Assembly (NCBI GenBank): GCA_002371695.1
Contig: DFGG01000154.1
Location: 1,169 to 24,497, forward strand
DNA length: 23,329 nt
Direction: 5' to 3'
DNA from: a bacterium UBA3756
GTDB taxonomy: Bacteria; Bacteroidota; Bacteroidia; Bacteroidales; Bacteroidaceae
Each line of letters starts with the position of its first letter. Positions within the stretch are counted from its first letter, which is position 1. The notes beneath the pieces are model-generated. The model was not told the origin of the DNA. It saw nothing but the letters and a program-made list of their open reading frames with translations, and made no database searches. Position numbers and translations under genes: made by a program. Positions 11,777 to 20,100 of this stretch are shown here, piece after piece.

Positions 11777-11820
11777 GATCATGGGGTCGGTTCTAGTGGA
11801 TCATGGGGTCGGTTCTAGTG
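11777..11820. repeat. Tandem duplication of the transposon's 22-bp left end
   Basis: The 22-mer gatcatggggtcggttctag+tg occurs at 11777-11798 and again at 11799-11820, the second copy continuing into the transposon. The second transposon copy (at 14291) has this end only once. Confidence 0.92.
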
Positions 11821-12313
11821 ATCATTTTTAAGTTTCTGAACTACTCCAAACGAGATGCCCGTCAGCCGGGACAGTTGTCTGACTCCTGCCCCAAAGGAAA
11901 GAGCGTATCTTAACACTTCATTCCGTCTCGTCTTCTCAAGACTTTGGACCATAAGAGGATTGGCAATTCCATGACTCATTTGAAGGAACGCCTTTACATC
12001 ACCGTCACTGATGGATTTGTTTCCTTCGGTGTCAATGGTGAATGTATCTTAACAAAGTGACAAAGTACTCAATATTGTCGACTGGTTCACTTCGAAACCT
12101 GTCTTGGAAGAGATGCCCGTTACGCTCGTATTTCTTGTTGAAATAATGCGCGTATGTCACGCCTATTCTCTTTACGATATTGCTGACACTATCTTCCCGT
12201 TCCTGTATTAGCAGGTGCAGATGGTTGCTCATCAGACAATATGCGTAGAATATGCAGAATGAAGATACCTGTTCCGCTTTTCTTCCGTATCTGTCTGGCC
12301 ATATATTTTCCAT
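11815..12313 (-). pseudogene. Y1 (RAYT/TnpREP-type) transposase, copy A, frameshifted by internal deletion
   Basis: Starts MENIWPDRYGRKAEQ. The motif YAYCLMSNHLHLLI contains the HUH pair H31/H33; GVTYAHYFNKKY-ERNGHLFQDRFRSEPV is the conserved region with the candidate catalytic Tyr. After RYIH (residue 92) the 188-bp deletion (not a multiple of three) creates a TGA. The remainder of the frame persists downstream to the TAG at 11815-11817, inside the terminal repeat. With the copy B segment restored, the frame is open for 228 codons. Compared with usual RAYT proteins, the first HUH-fold strand (around GxYHVxxRG) seems missing too, so even the reconstructed protein may have been N-terminally short. 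Confidence 0.85.
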
Positions 12314-12332
12314 GAATATTGCTTAACGATGG

Positions 12333-12364
12333 CAAATTTACAAACAAATTCTGATACAGCCAAA
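12333..12364 (-). promoter_or_regulatory. Transposase promoter of copy A: TTTG-N20-TAAATTTG
   Basis: On the minus strand TTTG (12361-12364) lies exactly 20 nt before TAAATTTG (12333-12340), and the ATG follows 19 nt further on. In copy B the deletion boundary cuts through this -7 box. Confidence 0.7.
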
Positions 12365-12510
12365 TTAATTACAAAAAAATGATCACCAGAACCGACCCCG
12401 TGATTAATTTTTATCTTAACGACTGCAGACACAGTTCCTGGAACTTTCGGACCATTTGTTAATATTTAAAAAAAGAGAGGGGAAATGGTACAACGAACAG
12501 AATTATTTCG

Positions 12511-12544: not shown

Positions 12545-14170
12545 ATGAAGACTAAAAACAATTTCTGGCTCCTAATTGCCATGCTGCTGAGCCTGACATT
12601 CACATTCTCAGCTTGTGGAGGTGGAGGTGATGATGACACCATACCTCGTGAACAACAACCCAACACCACCCCTAACGGAGGCGGCACTGAAGCTCCTCAG
12701 GGTACGTTGCAACTGACGCAGACCTGCGGCACATGCAAAGGTAATAAGAACTGCCCGACCTGTGGAGGCACAGGAAAAGGATGTCCGGTTTGCAAAGGTA
12801 CGACCGTGTGTCAAGAATGCGATGGGACGGGAGATCATCGCGAATGCGGTGGAACGGGCAAATGCCGTAAATGCGACGGAAATCGTAAGGAGAAATGTAG
12901 CGTGTGCAATGGTTCCAATAAGTGTAGTAATTGTCGGGGAAATGGAGTAGTCGGTGTTACCCAATGTGTGGTTTGTAAGGGTAAAAAAGAATGTCAGGAA
13001 TGTGAAAAGGGCTATGTTAGATGTTCCAGATGTAGCGGGACTGGTAGTTGTTCTTGTGGAGACGGCAAATGTCTAGAATGTAAAGGCAGCCACAAATGCA
13101 AGACATGCGGCGGTGACGGGCATTGTCCGTCTTGCGAAAACAGCGACGGCAAATGTAAAGCCTGTCACGGCAATGGCGAGATCAGCCTGCAGTCCTTCTC
13201 TTTTACCGATGCCAGTGATAAAGCGACAGTCAACATCCAGTGCACCGTAGAATGGACCGTATCGGCAGATGCAGACTGGATCAGTCTCTCGCAGTCATCA
13301 GGCAAGGGCAACGGCTCAATTACCGTCACAATCGCAAAGAACCCCACAGTCTCTTCGCGTAGTGGCGTCATCACTTTCACATACGGAAAGTCCAAACAGA
13401 CCGTCAATGTGCAGCAGGAAGGCGAAGCACTCAGGCTGACCGTTGCCCCAAATACAATTATATTGGATGCCAACGGTACGTCACAATCCGTCAAGATATC
13501 CTCGAACTCATCGTGGACTGTCAACGCTGAAGACTCATGGCTGACGTGCTCACCTGCCAATGGCAGTGGCGATGCGAACATTAGCGTCAGTGCCTCTGCC
13601 GTCGCCGCAGGGTCGCGTTACACGACGCTGACCGTCACTGACGCCACAGGAAAGGCGTCTGCTGAGGTCCTCATCAAGCAAGCCGAGAGCGCTGAAGCAT
13701 ATACGGCATTGAAGAATCTGTTGGAGAAGCCATTAGGTACCGTCAACGTGAACATCAAGACGGCATCAGCCAGCGCCGTTACGAATGCAGTCACAAGATT
13801 ATATAAGATAAAAGAGATCTCTAGTGGTGATTTCTGGCTTTATGCCAACGATAATCCTTCGCTCAACTTGACCTATCAAGGCTTGAATCTTCGGGGGATG
13901 TGTATTACTATTGAAAAAGACACCCGCTACGTCGCTTATGTGTTTGAGATTGAGAAATCCAAGGCTTCCGGTGGCTACAAGCCCTACCTCAAGAATATCC
14001 TTCAAGACTTCAAGTACAATCTTGGCATCACGTTAGAATCCACCAATGACTCCTATTATTTGGAGAGTTATAAGGTTCGCGACACTAATAAAAACACTTA
14101 TCATGTAGATGTAAGTGAATCTGAATATTTTGATACTTATGAATTCAAAATCAGTGTTTTCTACAAATAA
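12545..14170 (+). CDS. Surface lipoprotein with a DnaJ-type CxxC-rich region and two BACON domains
   Basis: 541 aa. Signal peptide with lipobox FSAC (C24) followed by GGGGDDD, an acidic-rich start like the export signals that send Bacteroidetes lipoproteins to the cell surface. Residues 61-207 hold 31 cysteines arranged as 14 CxxC pairs, one CxC (C169, C171) and one single Cys (C101), many as CxxCxGxG or CxxCxG, the pattern of the DnaJ cysteine-rich zinc finger but far longer than its four motifs. Residues 214-293 and 297-380 are BACON-type beta domains (VEWTVSADADWISLSQSSG; SSWTVNAEDSWLTCSPANG). The last ~160 residues are unrecognised. There is no J-domain, so it is not a chaperone of the DnaJ type. 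Function unknown; metal binding or disulfide-rich adhesion are possibilities. It sits between two transposon copies and is less GC-rich than upstream genes. Confidence 0.88.
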   Translation: MKTKNNFWLLIAMLLSLTFTFSACGGGGDDDTIPREQQPNTTPNGGGTEAPQGTLQLTQTCGTCKGNKNCPTCGGTGKGCPVCKGTTVCQECDGTGDHRECGGTGKCRKCDGNRKEKCSVCNGSNKCSNCRGNGVVGVTQCVVCKGKKECQECEKGYVRCSRCSGTGSCSCGDGKCLECKGSHKCKTCGGDGHCPSCENSDGKCKACHGNGEISLQSFSFTDASDKATVNIQCTVEWTVSADADWISLSQSSGKGNGSITVTIAKNPTVSSRSGVITFTYGKSKQTVNVQQEGEALRLTVAPNTIILDANGTSQSVKISSNSSWTVNAEDSWLTCSPANGSGDANISVSASAVAAGSRYTTLTVTDATGKASAEVLIKQAESAEAYTALKNLLEKPLGTVNVNIKTASASAVTNAVTRLYKIKEISSGDFWLYANDNPSLNLTYQGLNLRGMCITIEKDTRYVAYVFEIEKSKASGGYKPYLKNILQDFKYNLGITLESTNDSYYLESYKVRDTNKNTYHVDVSESEYFDTYEFKISVFYK

Positions 14171-14289: not shown

Positions 14290-14845
14290 TGATCATGGGG
14301 TCGGTTCTAGTGATCATTTTTAAGTTTCTGAACTACTCCAAACGAGATGCCCGTCAGCCGGGACAGTTGTCTGACTCCTGCCCCAAAGGAAAGAGCGTAT
14401 CTTAACACTTCATTCCGTCTCGTCTTCTCAAGAATTTGGACCATAAGAGGATTGGCAATTCCATGACTCATTTGAAGGAACGCCTTTACATCACCGTCAC
14501 TGATGGATTTGTTTCCTTCGGTGTCAATATCCATAATCTGACCATCATCTACTATAGGCGTATTGATTAACTCCACAAGGTCTGCCTGTCCGATACGGGC
14601 AAACACAGCCCTAGTAGAACAGAACGAGGCGGGACAGCCCCTGGGTGAATATTCCGTCCAGCTACTCCAAGGATAGGCGTTTATGTTTTCAACTATTCCT
14701 GCCTTCAGAGGATTCTGGTGAATGTATCTTAACAAAGTGACAAAGTACTCAATATTGTCGACTGGTTCACTTCTTTACAAACAAATTCTGATACAGCCAA
14801 ATTAATTACAAAAAAATGATCACCAGAACCGACCCCGTGATTAAT
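14290..14845 (-). mobile_element. REP-associated (Y1/IS200-like) transposon, copy B, internally deleted by 243 bp
   Basis: Same ends and orientation as copy A. It keeps the 188-bp block missing there (14529-14716) but lacks 243 bp that copy A has (12094-12336; junction 14773/14774). The lost part includes the transposase start, the HUH motif and the -7 box. Repair gives 798 bp, identical to the repaired copy A. Right inverted end reads gaaccgaccccgtgattaat. Neither copy can move by itself. Confidence 0.88.
14307..14773 (-). pseudogene. Y1 (RAYT-type) transposase, copy B, N-terminal half deleted
   Basis: The retained frame reads from about GSEPVDN through LLRYIHQNPLKAGIV, YPWSSWTEYS and the C-terminal helix-turn-helix-like end VRQLSRLTGISFGVVQKLKN, to the TAG at 14307-14309 in the terminal repeat. 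The 243-bp deletion is a multiple of three but removes the start codon, HUH motif and catalytic-Tyr region, so no activity is possible. Confidence 0.85.
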
Positions 14846-14906
14846 GAACCTCATGTTCGGCATCGACGAGACCGCCGGCCTCCGTCTGAAAGCCTCAGCC
14901 TTCTAA
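14846..14906 (+). other. Gene-like remnant right of transposon copy B
   Basis: Open frame ending FGIDETAGLRLKASAF then TAA at 14904-14906. An aromatic C-terminal residue would suit an outer-membrane barrel end, but the piece is too short to identify. It may continue the fragment at 14231-14289. Confidence 0.25.
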
Positions 14907-14949: not shown

Positions 14950-14976
14950 GTCCGACAAATTCCGAATTTGTCGGAC
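14950..14976. promoter_or_regulatory. 27-bp palindrome, candidate operator of the Kelch-AraC regulator gene
   Basis: Arms gtccgacaaattc and gaatttgtcggac (13 bp, perfect) flank one central base. Its centre (14963) lies 53 bp before the start of the -7 box at 15016, almost the same geometry as the matching palindrome at 16737. A T-rich stretch follows (tattttttgctttt), so it could also or instead terminate transcription from upstream. Confidence 0.7.
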
Positions 14977-15015: not shown

Positions 15016-15023
15016 TAATTTTG
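15016..15023 (+). promoter_or_regulatory. -7 box TAATTTTG of the regulator gene
   Basis: TAATTTTG fits TAnnTTTG; the leader to the ATG at 15055 is about 27 nt. No -33 TTTG at the right distance, as would suit an activator-dependent promoter. Confidence 0.55.
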
Positions 15024-15054: not shown

Positions 15055-16734
15055 ATGAAGAAGATATTCCACATTATTCTATTAATAATAGCCCTGATGA
15101 CCACATCAAAGGCCACTGCCGATGATGTTGGGAATGCGAAATGTCCTATCATAAAGCTTGAGGCAGAGCGCTTGCCCGATATGACAGTCCCTCGCAGCGG
15201 TCACTCGGCATTCCTGGCTAATGGCGAGGTGACGGTAGTGGGAGGACACACCTCCGGCTTTGTACTTACGCCCACAGCAGAATATTTTGAGGATGGCAAG
15301 TGGCATCAGTTACAGACCGTCTATACCCACGACGGAGGCATCTCTATCGTCATGAAGTCAGGGCTGGTGTTTTTGGCAGGTGGATTCAAGGACAATCTGG
15401 GCATCGGCCAGAGTTTTGAGGTAGAACTTTATGATCCAGCCACGCATCAGTCGAAAGGATTCGGTTGCCTTGACCAGAAGCGAGTCGCAGGAGCTGCTGT
15501 TGAGCTGGACAGCGGACGGGTGATGATCACTGGCAACTGGTACACCAATGACGGTATAGAGATATTCGACGGAAAGACCACGTTCTCTCATGTCCGCGAT
15601 GTCACACAGTCACGCTATTTGCCCCACCTTTTCCGAACTTCAGACGGTGATGTACTGATAGTGGCAGGCTACGATAATCATGGCGAGTCCATTGACACCA
15701 TTGTCGTAGACAGACTCTACGGCGAACCCTTCTGCAACGAACTGTTCGATAACTGGCATCCCTTACATTACGATCTGGCGCAGCATAGTGATGACAGTTT
15801 TATTGGTGACGAGACCAAAGGCGAGTTCCGCTACCTGATGCCTGTAGAGAACAAAGACGGGCAGTTGGCTATCATTGATGTACGCGACACCATCTTCACC
15901 CCTCTGCCCACTTCGGCTCCCATTCCTATGAGCAGTCAGTGGGGTGATATCAAATACATCACACCGGTCTTTGCCGACCGTCAGCATCAGCGAGGATATG
16001 TCGTAGGATTCGACAAAACCAGCCGTTTATATGCGCTTTGCATTGACTATACCAGGAATCCGGCCACACTGAAACTCTATCATACTGACCCGTTGCCTGA
16101 AGCAGGCATGCTCACCATTCCCGTACTGACAGCAGAGGGCAACCTGATGCTGACGGGTGGTATTGGCACCGAGCCCAACGGCAATTTCTCGCCAAAGTCC
16201 TCCGTCTGGCTCCTGCGTTTCAATGACGATGGCTCAGAAGCGACAGCAAGCACCAATGGCTGGCTTTGGGGACTCTTAGCGGCAGGGCTCTTACTGGCAT
16301 TCATAGTCTTTTTCGTCCTGAAGCGCAGAAAGCCACAGCCTCAACAGGAATCAGAGGAGCCGTCAGAGGCTGTCACCAAAGGTGATGAGCAGCTGATGCA
16401 ACGTATCTGTCATCTGATGGACGAGAAGCAACTCTATCTGCAACAAGGACTGAAAGTATCCGATATTGCTTCTGCGCTTGGTATCAACAGCCGATACGTC
16501 TCTGATTGTGTGAAAGCTGTCAGAGGTTGTTCTCTGACGCAATTTGTCAACGAATACCGTGTGGAGCATGCCAAGCGTCTGTTGCTCGAACGTCCGGAGA
16601 TGAAAATATCCACCGTAGCCATCGAGTCGGGCTTTACCAACGATAAGGCGATGACCCGCTACTTCAAGGAACAAACAGGCATGACGCCTACTGAATGGAA
16701 AACCAACAAACAAAATAACACCCAAAATCCGTAA
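15055..16734 (+). CDS. Transmembrane one-component regulator: Kelch-like sensor, TM, AraC-type HTH
   Basis: 559 aa from ATG 15055 (a longer TTG start at 15034 would put residues before the signal-like helix). Residues 1-20 form a signal peptide or anchor (KKIFHIILLIIALMTTSKA). Residues 30-395 are a Kelch-like beta-propeller with VTVVGGH, VFLAGGF, RVMITGN, LIVAGYD and LMLTGGIG blades. Residues 403-422 are one TM helix (WLWGLLAAGLLLAFIVFFVL) followed by KRRK, placing the rest in the cytoplasm. Residues about 440-545 are an AraC/XylS double HTH (LKVSDIASALGINSRYVSD; ISTVAIESGFTNDKAMTRYF). There is no kinase, phosphoacceptor His or receiver domain, so it differs from Bacteroides hybrid two-component regulators. 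It probably senses an extracytoplasmic ligand and activates the operon downstream. Its sensor is homologous to the secreted protein at 18697-20100. Confidence 0.9.
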   Translation: MKKIFHIILLIIALMTTSKATADDVGNAKCPIIKLEAERLPDMTVPRSGHSAFLANGEVTVVGGHTSGFVLTPTAEYFEDGKWHQLQTVYTHDGGISIVMKSGLVFLAGGFKDNLGIGQSFEVELYDPATHQSKGFGCLDQKRVAGAAVELDSGRVMITGNWYTNDGIEIFDGKTTFSHVRDVTQSRYLPHLFRTSDGDVLIVAGYDNHGESIDTIVVDRLYGEPFCNELFDNWHPLHYDLAQHSDDSFIGDETKGEFRYLMPVENKDGQLAIIDVRDTIFTPLPTSAPIPMSSQWGDIKYITPVFADRQHQRGYVVGFDKTSRLYALCIDYTRNPATLKLYHTDPLPEAGMLTIPVLTAEGNLMLTGGIGTEPNGNFSPKSSVWLLRFNDDGSEATASTNGWLWGLLAAGLLLAFIVFFVLKRRKPQPQQESEEPSEAVTKGDEQLMQRICHLMDEKQLYLQQGLKVSDIASALGINSRYVSDCVKAVRGCSLTQFVNEYRVEHAKRLLLERPEMKISTVAIESGFTNDKAMTRYFKEQTGMTPTEWKTNKQNNTQNP

Positions 16735-16736
16735 TC

Positions 16737-16763
16737 GTCCGACAAATTCCAAAAATGTCGGAC
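16737..16763. promoter_or_regulatory. 27-bp palindrome, candidate operator of the BspA-Kelch operon
   Basis: Half-sites gtccgaca and tgtcggac at the same 27-bp span as the palindrome at 14950; an 18-base block beginning aatcgtccgacaaattcc is identical in both. Pairing extends to tcgtccgaca/tgtcggacga (16735-16765). Its centre (16750) lies 54 bp before the start of the -7 box at 16804. It begins right after the regulator's stop codon and precedes ataattttt, so a terminator role is possible. Confidence 0.7.
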
Positions 16764-16803
16764 GATAATTTTTATTATAATCCCCATATTCGCCTTTTTT
16801 CCC

Positions 16804-16811
16804 TATCTTTG
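16804..16811 (+). promoter_or_regulatory. -7 box TATCTTTG of the BspA-Kelch operon
   Basis: TATCTTTG fits TAnnTTTG; the leader to the ATG at 16847 is about 30 nt. No TTTG -33 element is seen, consistent with dependence on an activator bound upstream. Confidence 0.6.
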
Positions 16812-16846
16812 TCCCAGCATTACTAACTCAAAAAAACATTTTATTT

Positions 16847-18700
16847 ATGAGAAAAGCGTTACTAATATTTGTTGCGATGCTCTCGGTTATAACCGTAGGA
16901 GCACAGGGCTTAGAGTACGTCTACGATGATGCTACTCACACTGCAAAAGTAACTTATCGTGTAAGGACATTGGGTGATGGAACGAAGGAGCGTATCAAAG
17001 GAAGCTACCACGGGGACATTGTCATTCCAGAAACAGTATCAGGCTATACAGTAACTGGTGTTGGCGAGCTGGCTTTCGACCAATGTGATAACATCCCGTC
17101 CGTAAAGTTTCCCAACACGATGAAGGCGATTGAGGAACGTGCTTTTTGTGGCTGTAAGATTTTGAAGGAAGTGATTATTCCCGCCAGTGTTGATACCATC
17201 TACAACAATGCCTTTGACGATTGCCAAGCTTTGGAGAAAGTCGTATTTGAAGATGGTGAAAACCTTCTGAAACTGGGTGTCGGCAGTTCTTCGGCAGAGT
17301 CAGGCATGTTTTCTTTCCAGCCTGTAAAAACCGTCTACATTGGCCGTCCTTACCGCTATCCAAAGGTGAAGGCATGGGGATGGTATGATTATTACGACCT
17401 GAGTGCCTTTGGACGCTGCCAGACACTGGAGGAGGTTACATTCGGACCTTATGTTAAGGAAATCCAGCCTTTCGAGTTTATACTTACGCCAGCACTTAAA
17501 ACTGTCACAATAAACGGAACTATCACTACTTTAGCCACAAAGGCTTTCTACAAATGTGAGAGTCTCAAGTCCATCAACCTACCTGAGGGTCTCACGACGA
17601 TAGGTGTCAGAGCGTTTGAATTTTGTAAGTCGCTTGAGAATATTAAATTCCCGTCTACTTTGACAATGATTGACGAATATGCGTTTGGAAGTTGTGAGGG
17701 ATTACAGAAACTTGTCATTCCTGCCAGTGTAGGGTCCTTAGGCCTGGCTTCGTTTACCGCATGCACATCCGTAAAAGAGGTTATTCTCGAAGATAGTCCA
17801 TACGAACTTACTTTGCCCTATGGAAGTGAGGGTGGCAGTAACGGTTTCTTCACCAGCATGCCTTTAGAGAAGGCCTATATCGGGCGGCCCTACAGTCATC
17901 CTGAGACAGGCTGGGCTGGCTACAGGACAGGAGCATTTACCCGCTGTGCCTATCTTAAGGAAGTTCGGTTTGGAGATTATGTAACAAAGATCTTGAACGG
18001 AGATTTCATGGAATTACATAAATTACAGACTGTTGTTCTCCCTAAATCGTTAAAATCCATAGGTGAATTTGGGTTTACCGCATGCGAAAATCTGAATGCC
18101 ATTACTTGTCCTGCAACGACTCCACCCGTATGTAGCAATTATGTATTCTCTAATACAGATAAACAAACCTGTAAATTATACGTGCCAAGTGAAAGCATCG
18201 AGTTGTACAAGGCAGCAAACGTATGGAAGGAATTTTTCAATATTGAGGCATATGTTGGTCCTGATCCTGGTGGTGAAGGTACAGGCGACGGCACGGAGTT
18301 TATCGTTCATCTGAAGGCTGGAGGCACTGTAGGCTATGCCCTCGCATCGAAGCCGAAAGTCACATTGAGCGGCAATGTGTTCACGGTGACAACGACCGAT
18401 GGGGCTGCCACCTATCAGCACTCAGAAGTGGAGAAATTCACGCTCAATGTGGCAACAGCCATTAGCCAGCCTATTGCTGAAGCAGCAGGTGAGCCGCAGA
18501 TTATTCGTCAGGTAGGCCAGCTCACCTTTACAGGTTGCAAGCCTAATGAGAGCATCTGCATCTATTCGGCTGCCGGAAAACTTCTGCTGACGGCTCAGAC
18601 CGATGCCAACGGCTATGCCGAAGTGCAGACCAGCCAGTTGCCAAAGGGCATCTACGTAGTGAAATCAGACAGTGTAACCATCAAAATTGCAAAGCAATGA
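16847..18700 (+). CDS. BspA-type leucine-rich repeat (LRR_5) secreted surface protein
   Basis: 617 aa. Signal peptide 1-20 (KALLIFVAMLSVITVGAQ). Residues about 55-465 hold roughly ten LRR_5 units with the pattern L--I-LP-sl--I---AF--C--L, for example LKSINLPEGLTTIGVRAFEFC and LQKLVIPASVGSL. The repeat series is interrupted twice by a related insert (VYIGRPYRYP at 163-172, AYIGRPYSHP at 343-352). After a GPDPGGEGTGDG linker, residues 484-534 form a beta module (EFIVHLKAGGTVGYAL), and residues 555-617 end in GIYVVKSDSVTIKIAKQ, resembling a type IX secretion sorting domain. BspA-like proteins are adhesins or bind polysaccharide or host proteins; the ligand here is unknown. Its TGA overlaps the next ATG (ATGA, 18697-18700), so both are translated together. 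Confidence 0.9.
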   Translation: MRKALLIFVAMLSVITVGAQGLEYVYDDATHTAKVTYRVRTLGDGTKERIKGSYHGDIVIPETVSGYTVTGVGELAFDQCDNIPSVKFPNTMKAIEERAFCGCKILKEVIIPASVDTIYNNAFDDCQALEKVVFEDGENLLKLGVGSSSAESGMFSFQPVKTVYIGRPYRYPKVKAWGWYDYYDLSAFGRCQTLEEVTFGPYVKEIQPFEFILTPALKTVTINGTITTLATKAFYKCESLKSINLPEGLTTIGVRAFEFCKSLENIKFPSTLTMIDEYAFGSCEGLQKLVIPASVGSLGLASFTACTSVKEVILEDSPYELTLPYGSEGGSNGFFTSMPLEKAYIGRPYSHPETGWAGYRTGAFTRCAYLKEVRFGDYVTKILNGDFMELHKLQTVVLPKSLKSIGEFGFTACENLNAITCPATTPPVCSNYVFSNTDKQTCKLYVPSESIELYKAANVWKEFFNIEAYVGPDPGGEGTGDGTEFIVHLKAGGTVGYALASKPKVTLSGNVFTVTTTDGAATYQHSEVEKFTLNVATAISQPIAEAAGEPQIIRQVGQLTFTGCKPNESICIYSAAGKLLLTAQTDANGYAEVQTSQLPKGIYVVKSDSVTIKIAKQ

Positions 18701-20100
18701 AACGAAATATAATCTTTAAAGCCCTGATAGCAGCTATTGTCAGCACCGCAGCCTTGCAAGTGCAGGCTCAGGGCATCTATGTGAACAAGAAGAATGGCGA
18801 GAGCATCCCTTATCCCGCTGCCACCTTCGACAAGGTGACACCCACGTCGAAAGCAACTGCTTCGACGAATACTACTGAAGGAGTTGTGGCCACGCTCAAA
18901 TGTGAGAAAATTGCTGATATGATAAACGGCCGTTTCGACCATCATATTTTTGCTTCAGGCAATGATATCGTCGTTGTCGGTGGCCTTAGTTCTTGGTTCA
19001 AGGCCAACAGAACGGCAGAAGTTTACCACAATGGTGTCTGGAAAGAAATGAGCATCGACGATCCCCACAGGGGTGGCTTTTCTGCTATCCTGGCAGACGG
19101 ACGTGTTATGATAGGGGGTGGAGGTCAATATTCTGGTAGCGACAAGACTGCCTCCACCATCATCTACAATCCTTCGACTCAGACCTTTACTTCAGGTCCT
19201 GATATGACGACGGCCCGTTCTGAGTGCCAAGCGGTGCCTGTGGGTAATACCATCTATGTGACAGGTAATTACAAGGGTGATGATAAAACCATGGATTATT
19301 TCGACGGGACATCATTCAAAGCTGTTGGTGATACGTACGAGCGTTCATATCCATATATATTTGCTTCCGAAGAAGGAGACATCTGGACTTGGGGAACCAA
19401 AGACACTGAAGGAAATCCCGTTGAACTGTATCAGACCGATGACGGACGTCAAGGACTGCTTGTCAATGGATATAACCCCTCAACCAACGAGACAGGAAGT
19501 TACTTCTTCAGTATTTTAGCAGAATATAAGCCCATAGTGAAACGGGGCTATCTCCGTCCGACAGACTATTATAGTAGTGCCAGCGAAGAACCAGGTTATT
19601 TCTTCATCGGCGAAAACAGTGAAGGAGAGTATAAACTATTTAATGCAGTACCGTCTGGCGGTCATTGCCAGTTGAATTCATTTGGGCTTGACTTTCCAAA
19701 GGTTTTTCCCGGTACAGATGTAAAACTCCTATTTTCAGGCGCAGTTGTTCTTGTGAACTCTGCCAAGCATGAGCTATACATTATTACCCAATATGAGAGT
19801 CATGATGAGTGTATCATCAGCTATGACTATTATACTGGGGATTGGAGTATTGCCAAGACAGAAGGACTCCATCAATTACAGTCTTGGTCTGGTGCGTTTG
19901 CATTACTGAATGATGGTCGCATTGTCTGTGCAGGAGGTATTAATGGAGATGACGGAGTAAAAGATGTTTACATCATCACTCCGCCAACTGCTGGCACTAC
20001 TGGTATTGCTGGTGAAAATGGTGTTGATGTCTGGAAGAAAGACGGCAGCCATGACACCTATTGGGAAAGTGAGCTGGAGAGTATCAGCACTTACGAATGA
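18697..20100 (+). CDS. Secreted Kelch-like beta-propeller protein, paralog of the regulator's sensor
   Basis: 467 aa. Signal peptide 1-24 (NIIFKALIAAIVSTAALQVQA). Residues 60-430 are Kelch-like blades (DIVVVGGL, RVMIGGGG, TIYVTGNY, RIVCAGGI). They align along most of the length with the exported part of the regulator at 15055: WKEMSIDD with WHQLQTVY, TAEVYHNG with TAEYFEDG, VTGNYKGDD with ITGNWYTND. Two short modules bracket the propeller: IYVNKKNGESIPYPAATFD (27-45) and VDVWKKDGSHDTYWESELES (443-462), of the KxxG-Y type common near the ends of Prevotella secreted proteins. No galactose-oxidase copper ligands are apparent. No C-terminal sorting domain is evident, so its final location (periplasm or surface) is open. 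It probably binds the same ligand as the regulator, or antagonises it (inference). Confidence 0.87.
   Translation: MKRNIIFKALIAAIVSTAALQVQAQGIYVNKKNGESIPYPAATFDKVTPTSKATASTNTTEGVVATLKCEKIADMINGRFDHHIFASGNDIVVVGGLSSWFKANRTAEVYHNGVWKEMSIDDPHRGGFSAILADGRVMIGGGGQYSGSDKTASTIIYNPSTQTFTSGPDMTTARSECQAVPVGNTIYVTGNYKGDDKTMDYFDGTSFKAVGDTYERSYPYIFASEEGDIWTWGTKDTEGNPVELYQTDDGRQGLLVNGYNPSTNETGSYFFSILAEYKPIVKRGYLRPTDYYSSASEEPGYFFIGENSEGEYKLFNAVPSGGHCQLNSFGLDFPKVFPGTDVKLLFSGAVVLVNSAKHELYIITQYESHDECIISYDYYTGDWSIAKTEGLHQLQSWSGAFALLNDGRIVCAGGINGDDGVKDVYIITPPTAGTTGIAGENGVDVWKKDGSHDTYWESELESISTYE

Follow-up and report, generated by a model that had tools for sequence, protein, structure and literature searches.

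The window, a stretch of 23,329 nucleotides from the Bacteroidaceae bacterium UBA3756 (contig DFGG01000154.1, positions 1,169 to 24,497), encodes a one-component regulator that joins a Kelch propeller, one transmembrane helix and an AraC-type DNA-binding domain, followed by an operon for a BspA-type leucine-rich repeat (LRR) protein and an exported Kelch propeller protein. The regulator, below also called the sensor, probably senses a signal outside the inner membrane and binds a local operator of inverted and direct repeats, which keeps a constant distance to the promoter of the surface-protein operon next to it, as well as a site at its own promoter; most likely both promoters are activated, the operon being one of many interchangeable cargoes. 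Judged from the sequences, control of the neighboring BspA/Kelch operon by the regulator is well supported because the operator-promoter geometry is fixed, the half-sites covary with a recognition helix and the best-matching sites lie beside sensor genes. A previous reading of the window (the sequence-only reading) had regarded the regulator as dedicated to the adjacent operon, and operator geometry, helix covariation and operator location all speak for it. The features of the system are:

14950..14976, plus strand: inverted-repeat operator 5' of the sensor gene, half-site TG at 14969 (pattern match)
15016..15023, plus strand: -7 promoter box TAATTTTG of the sensor gene, TG 47 nt upstream (TAnnTTTG consensus)
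15055..16734, plus strand: Kelch-transmembrane-AraC one-component regulator, 559 aa
15145..16236, plus strand: galactose-oxidase-like propeller domain, regulator aa 31-394 (predicted structure)
16258..16326, plus strand: transmembrane helix, regulator aa 402-424 (predicted model)
16378..16725, plus strand: AraC-type DNA-binding domain, regulator aa 442-557 (domain match and predicted model)
16636..16668, plus strand: recognition helix 2, regulator aa 528-538, TNDKAMTRYFK (covariation with operator)
16737..16763, plus strand: inverted-repeat operator in the gap from regulator to cargo, TG of the half-site at 16756 (pattern match)
16804..16811, plus strand: cargo operon -7 promoter box TATCTTTG, with the half-site TG at a distance of 48 nt
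16847..18700, plus strand: BspA-type LRR protein with type IX secretion system (T9SS) type A sorting tail, 617 aa (domain matches)
18697..20100, plus strand: exported protein with Kelch propeller, 467 aa (gene overlapping that of BspA by ATGA)

The regulator chain runs from a signal sequence through the propeller and the single membrane helix to the DNA-binding domain, and relatives of the sensor show a hydropathy peak at a position like that of this helix. HTH_18 is matched above cut-off (E 1.5e-21), and aa 442-557, with the two helix-turn-helix motifs of the AraC type, form an all-helical domain in the predicted model. No histidine kinase or receiver family was matched (Pfam; 25 of the 29 NCBIfam matches listed), which sets the protein apart from the hybrid two-component systems (HTCS). 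By the features tested, a single chain that unites an exported sensor with a lone membrane helix and a DNA-binding domain, it is an AraC-family membrane one-component regulator and not an HTCS; domain scans and model thereby confirm what had been read from the letters, namely Kelch, transmembrane and AraC parts in one polypeptide without kinase or receiver. The Kelch motif of the sensor stays just under the Pfam cut-offs (Kelch_2 20.3 vs 21.3 bits, Kelch_1 19.5 vs 20.1). A Kelch propeller fold is predicted by the structure models for both the sensor and the secreted Kelch protein.

Two matches to the operator pattern are present in the window, compared with a mean of 0.01 in shuffled sequences. 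TAnnTTTG is the -7 consensus of the main sigma factor of Bacteroides according to an excerpt of PMC7366714. The window palindrome (up to one mismatch) occurs once each in genomes G001, G032 and G251, directly 5' of a sensor gene, and was not found in the relatives G014, G120 and G123. G001 is the nearest genome and is 61% complete.

Operator geometry was determined for 98 sensors, comprising 50 representatives (less than 80% identical) and 48 validation sensors (less than 80% identical to the representatives, unfiltered among themselves). The validation set consisted of 60 regions picked from match places in the genus plus L135-L138; 67 sensors were found there, and those at least 80% identical to any discovery sensor were excluded. 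The rule measures the distance from the inverted-repeat half-site to TAnnTTTG; it was fixed after a spacing of 48-49 had been seen, yet every spacing from 25 to 80 nt was counted. Downstream of the 98 sensors the right-arm TG lies 48 nt (37 sensors) or 49 nt (15 sensors) from TAnnTTTG, 52/98 in total, and no operator was found at any other spacing within 25-80 nt. Of the regions upstream of sensors, 8/93 have an operator at 47-49, and one each was found at 66 and at 80. In 79 loci (the best 79 of 378 confirmed matches from a scan of named genomes), covered on both strands over a total of 1.32 Mb, 77 sites adjoin full sensors, 76 of these at 47-49; 17 sites lie away from full sensors with all spacings counted, and two of the 17 precede truncated sensors. 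The final counts follow the geometry rule because an earlier finder of half-sites had called false arms in a number of sequences.

The DNA 3' of the sensor genes contains an inverted repeat, often together with a third, direct half-site at +21. With no motif model, 9-mer repeats at an offset of 21 bp were found there in 22/50 discovery sequences (0.8 expected from shuffles) and in 21/40 validation sequences not used for discovery, with at most 3 at other offsets. After filtering of short-period tandem repeats the values are 21/50 and 19/40 vs 26/403 regions after other genes, and a few of these 26 are operators preceding sensors. Some background remains, as offset 12 gave 28 in the filtered control over all 403 regions vs 26 at offset 21; the unfiltered 21-bp control gave 28 of 164 drawn regions after other genes, and offset 14 gave 26. 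A strict array definition is matched by 29/50 sensors vs 5/670 random 250-bp windows, the post-sensor stretches being of varying length. Half-sites about 21 bp apart near a promoter, the direct-repeat arrangement of AraC/XylS regulators, are present in about half of the family. Exact own half-sites occur upstream of the sensor in 4/32 loci, and autoregulation would therefore not be general; the window's near relatives L051, L052, L055, L108 and L137 have an upstream operator at spacing 47. Extra operators with 48-nt spacing precede further genes in two sensor loci (L120 at 7066, L124 at 9340), where one sensor may serve two promoters.

The operator sequence covaries with recognition helix 2. 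In partial Mantel tests with propeller distance held, half-site distance correlates with helix 2 (r 0.56, p 0.0005), the values for helix 1 and the rest of the AraC domain being r 0.06 (p 0.24) and r 0.12 (p 0.06); with helix 2 held, the propeller gives r 0.06 (p 0.18). The best 12 of the 11-residue windows scanned along the protein all touch helix 2. At half-site base 4, C is found in 6/6 sensors with R531 and in 6/23 with T531 (Fisher p 0.002), L135 and L136 being near-duplicates among the latter. The K531 clade of the window has a TGTC[GT] half-site with an 11-nt loop in 5/5; the operator of the K531 sensor L053 is upstream only. Outside the genus, operators were predicted from helix 2 as TGGCAGTC for L217 and TGTCAGTC for L218, and both were found 3' of the sensor, in L218 at spacing 48 without a third copy, in L217 with the 21-bp direct copy and without a canonical -7 box.

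The pattern TGTTAGTC-N13-TGTTAGTC was located in five genomes, where 6/6 matches with at most one mismatch and 2/8 with two mismatches adjoin a sensor. Among sensor pairs on the same contig, downstream half-sites differ in L071, L075 and L116 and are equal in L065.

Several observations weigh against control of the adjacent operon through such operators. By the geometry rule 44/98 sensors have no operator on either side, and the K531 sensors L139 and L146 have none; a few near-duplicates are contained in the 98 because the validation sensors were unfiltered among themselves. The third half-site of the window itself is degenerate (TATAATCC, 5/8 mismatches). Once the K531 clade is removed, the helix-2 correlation drops to r 0.33 (p 0.0005), and a window in the propeller, at aa 263, does as well (0.406) as the best one on helix 2 (0.409); with only the 21 validation sequences helix 2 gives r 0.24 (p 0.02) and a propeller window around aa 263 comes first, so that the clade difference carries much of the covariation signal. 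T531 sensors can nonetheless have C at base 4, as the six above do. Six of the eight two-mismatch matches of TGTTAGTC-N13-TGTTAGTC are away from any sensor, and allowing up to two mismatches gives no genome-wide enrichment (14 matches vs 52 for the reversed control); the evidence is therefore the location of the matches, not their number. In G158 two sensor loci have the common half-site TGTTAGTC, and operators are therefore not always private.

In the mechanism that most likely applies, the Kelch propeller would face the periplasm and sense an extracytoplasmic signal, presumably by binding a ligand, and an AraC dimer on two direct half-sites reaching into the -33 region would recruit RNA polymerase. 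The inverted half-site, third of the set, may hold a loop or a dimer and may also terminate the sensor transcript. The regulator most likely activates the cargo operon and its own promoter. Repression of the cargo, relieved by the signal, is unlikely: a third half-site placed 21 nt past the second, with 27-28 nt left to the -7 box, lies over the -33 region and is compatible with a repressor, whereas direct half-sites adjoining the -35/-33 element are the usual layout of AraC-family activators.

The LRR protein has LRR_5 repeats and a sorting tail that scores 25.6 bits with TIGR04183 (cut-off 23) and stays below cut-off with the Pfam model (21.4 vs 27); it would be exported by the T9SS and may take part in surface contact. 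In the secreted Kelch protein no T9SS sorting domain was found by Pfam and NCBIfam scans. The BspA-type LRR gene and the secreted Kelch gene with its ATGA overlap are present as the sequence-only reading had described them, and the two are probably translationally coupled.

Sensor and secreted Kelch are similar in sequence over 204 residues of the N-terminal half (29% identity), and the secreted protein as a full-length sequence copy of the sensor was rejected on account of this limit. Alignment over most of the length, as had been claimed, thus does not hold for the sequence; the fold is predicted to be the same, since both propeller models match galactose oxidase along their length, and the unrelated folds that had been named as grounds for giving up the idea were not seen. 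In sensors H65 and T66 are found in 48/48 and D93 in 47/48. Secreted relatives (38 of 112 found, hand-picked for spread) keep H in 29/38, T in 30/38 and D in 32/38, and the window's copy has L, S and R at these positions and lacks the GIGQ motif as well. Many secreted relatives have about 685 aa, the window's copy and a few others 462-476 aa.

That sensor and secreted paralog bind the same ligand, as had been proposed, is weakened because the window's copy has lost residues invariant in sensors; as far as such residues can tell, a common ligand is plausible in the family at large but doubtful in the case of the window's copy, and the proposal does not stand as it was put. A role of the secreted Kelch as carrier, decoy or feedback element for the sensor's ligand is accordingly improbable, although the predicted fold, the identity over the N-terminal half, the signature kept by most of the 38 relatives and the secreted Kelch relatives that adjoin sensors in L103 (same strand) and L078 (divergent) speak for it. 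Against it stand the missing H, T, D and GIGQ in the window and the rarity of the family, the 684-aa relative P0139 having matches in 5/266 good genomes of the genus, only three of them over the propeller, vs 57/266 for the sensor. No sensor was found within the 18-19 kb fetched around the secreted Kelch genes of L050, L130 and L131, a further point against this role.

That the inverted repeats flanking the sensor gene serve solely as intrinsic terminators, with the regulator acting elsewhere, is very unlikely: in many loci the right arm lies just past the stop codon and is followed by a T run, T-rich DNA follows each inverted repeat in the window and a double role of the repeat as terminator is possible, but a terminator requires no fixed distance of 48-49 nt to a promoter box further on, no direct copy at 21 bp and no recognition helix with which it covaries.

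With activation by the regulator as the preferred reading, the genes that it would control are variable. A same-strand gene follows within 450 nt downstream in 79/87 sensors (79 loci). First downstream genes of at least 150 aa have a signal sequence (heuristic) in 69/73 cases vs 222/672 other genes of the same loci, and in 37/40 when representatives only are counted. Among 60 first-cargo proteins (59 of the 61 listed, with L084:11727 and L118:11800 excluded, plus the window protein) 11 contain LRR_5, and a T9SS tail is recognized in 13 by NCBIfam and in 11 by Pfam; models for cleaved adhesins, BACON, peptidase C10 or Mfa1 fimbriae are matched by others of the set. The 33 second-cargo proteins (32 of 40 plus the window protein) include BACON in 9, Y_Y_Y in 6 and several immunoglobulin-like families.

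Over 467 residues the LRR part of the window protein shares 88.6% identity with the L055 cargo, the sensors of the two loci being only 75% identical, while the first cargo genes beside the 82-83% identical sensors of L051 and L052 have no LRR match; cargo exchange fits this distribution. The order sensor, BspA, secreted Kelch, which the sequence-only reading had suggested looking for in related genomes, was seen in no other locus among those fetched, and a fixed three-gene unit is rejected since the sensor stays constant while the cargo changes. The earlier observation is thus partly confirmed and its interpretation partly supported, with control of the adjacent operon retained and conserved order and shared ligand not. 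L072 encodes, 3' of a sensor gene, a single protein with fused LRR and Kelch parts, and so does L131, where the stretch that was fetched contained no sensor; these fusions support a partnership of LRR and Kelch.

The sensor, a protein of gut Prevotella, is encoded in 63/277 genomes of the nearest genus, 57/266 good ones (E <= 1e-60). In the order sample 4/344 genomes match at 1e-40, one of them G001, which is also the single match in the class sample (1/247). The 79 loci carry titles that name, for the most part, assemblies of Prevotella, Prevotellaceae or Bacteroidales, with ruminants as the origin of many. A protein search yielded 1299 relatives at E <= 1e-10 among 7997 candidates scored, and an AraC domain is present in all 120 of the 1299 that were listed.

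More tentatively, these loci can be pictured as a plug-in system for surface display in Prevotella, with a conserved sensor, fast-diverging operators readable from helix 2 and exchangeable exported cargo, several per genome and partly insulated; secreted propeller copies, sometimes fused to LRR, might have arisen within it and compete for or present the signal. As a picture of the window, one fixed three-gene device gives way to a family in which the sensor persists and the cargo varies. If control by the sensor is as proposed here, regulator, DNA site and promoter would be named for a class of Prevotella surface-protein loci to which no regulator was found to be assigned, a rule from one helix would help to predict operator sequences, and the extracellular signal would become testable with a simple reporter.

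As described in an excerpt of PMC3878776, SusR-like regulators of Bacteroides share the membrane one-component layout, periplasmic sensor, cytoplasmic DNA-binding domain and direct-repeat operators. SusR, compared here by description only, controls starch-use genes, whereas the cargo here is of the exported surface type and the regulator has a Kelch propeller sensor and an AraC-type DNA-binding domain. For HTCS of Bacteroidetes the same excerpt gives predicted motifs made of direct repeats, their period being 20-21 bp (16+5, 12+9, 14+6). One of the two best solved matches to the AraC domain, 12aw, comes from an HTCS, but neither a histidine kinase nor a receiver is among the families found in the window regulator. 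By analogy with the systems in that excerpt (PMC3878776), it would work like SusR and like an HTCS minus the phosphorelay. Identity to the propeller of galactose oxidase (AA5) is 8-16% among the matches listed, and no enzyme activity is claimed. The DNA-binding domain of CadC/ToxR is a winged helix-turn-helix, whereas that of the window regulator is C-terminal and of AraC fold, with a Kelch sensor. With CadC/ToxR and VtrA/VtrC the window regulator shares a chain that combines a sensor domain, a single membrane helix and a DNA-binding domain, and fast-evolving gene cassettes are likewise common to them (PMC9214523, in part). Among BspA-type LRR surface proteins the window protein is an ordinary member with LRR_5 and T9SS tail. 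New in the window system are the Kelch sensor, the inverted-plus-direct operator and the arrangement of constant sensor and variable cargo. No paper on a Kelch-AraC membrane regulator is among the matches listed in the open-licence PubMed Central literature, from which absence from print is not claimed.

The sensor gene lies immediately 3' of argC in 20/79 loci by hand count (L054, L055, L069, L071-L076, L079, L084, L085, L089, L095, L107, L113, L114, L116, L120 and L123), and argD follows the cargo in many; the arginine genes are perhaps an insertion hot spot for sensor loci. A 4-nt overlap between the first cargo gene and its successor is present in 14/79 loci, likewise counted by hand (L051-L054, L057, L061, L070, L071, L075, L079, L091, L103, L105 and L107). 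In 11 of these 14 the first protein, of 157-212 aa, matches the C-terminal part of the window BspA protein and is followed by one of 622-1300 aa. Another type of AraC-domain protein, about 410 aa long, is encoded in L130 (3758-5008) and L133 (3040-4269), divergent to Kelch genes or to genes resembling the BspA C-terminus, and may likewise regulate cargo of this kind. Upstream in the window, two internally shortened IS200-like (Y1_Tnp) copies with like ends (11799-12405 and 14295-14846), each retaining a different part of the transposase as read by eye, flank the plus-strand gene 12545-14170. It encodes a putative lipoprotein with many CxxCxGxG repeats, which presumably resemble the zinc-finger region of DnaJ, followed by BACON domains.
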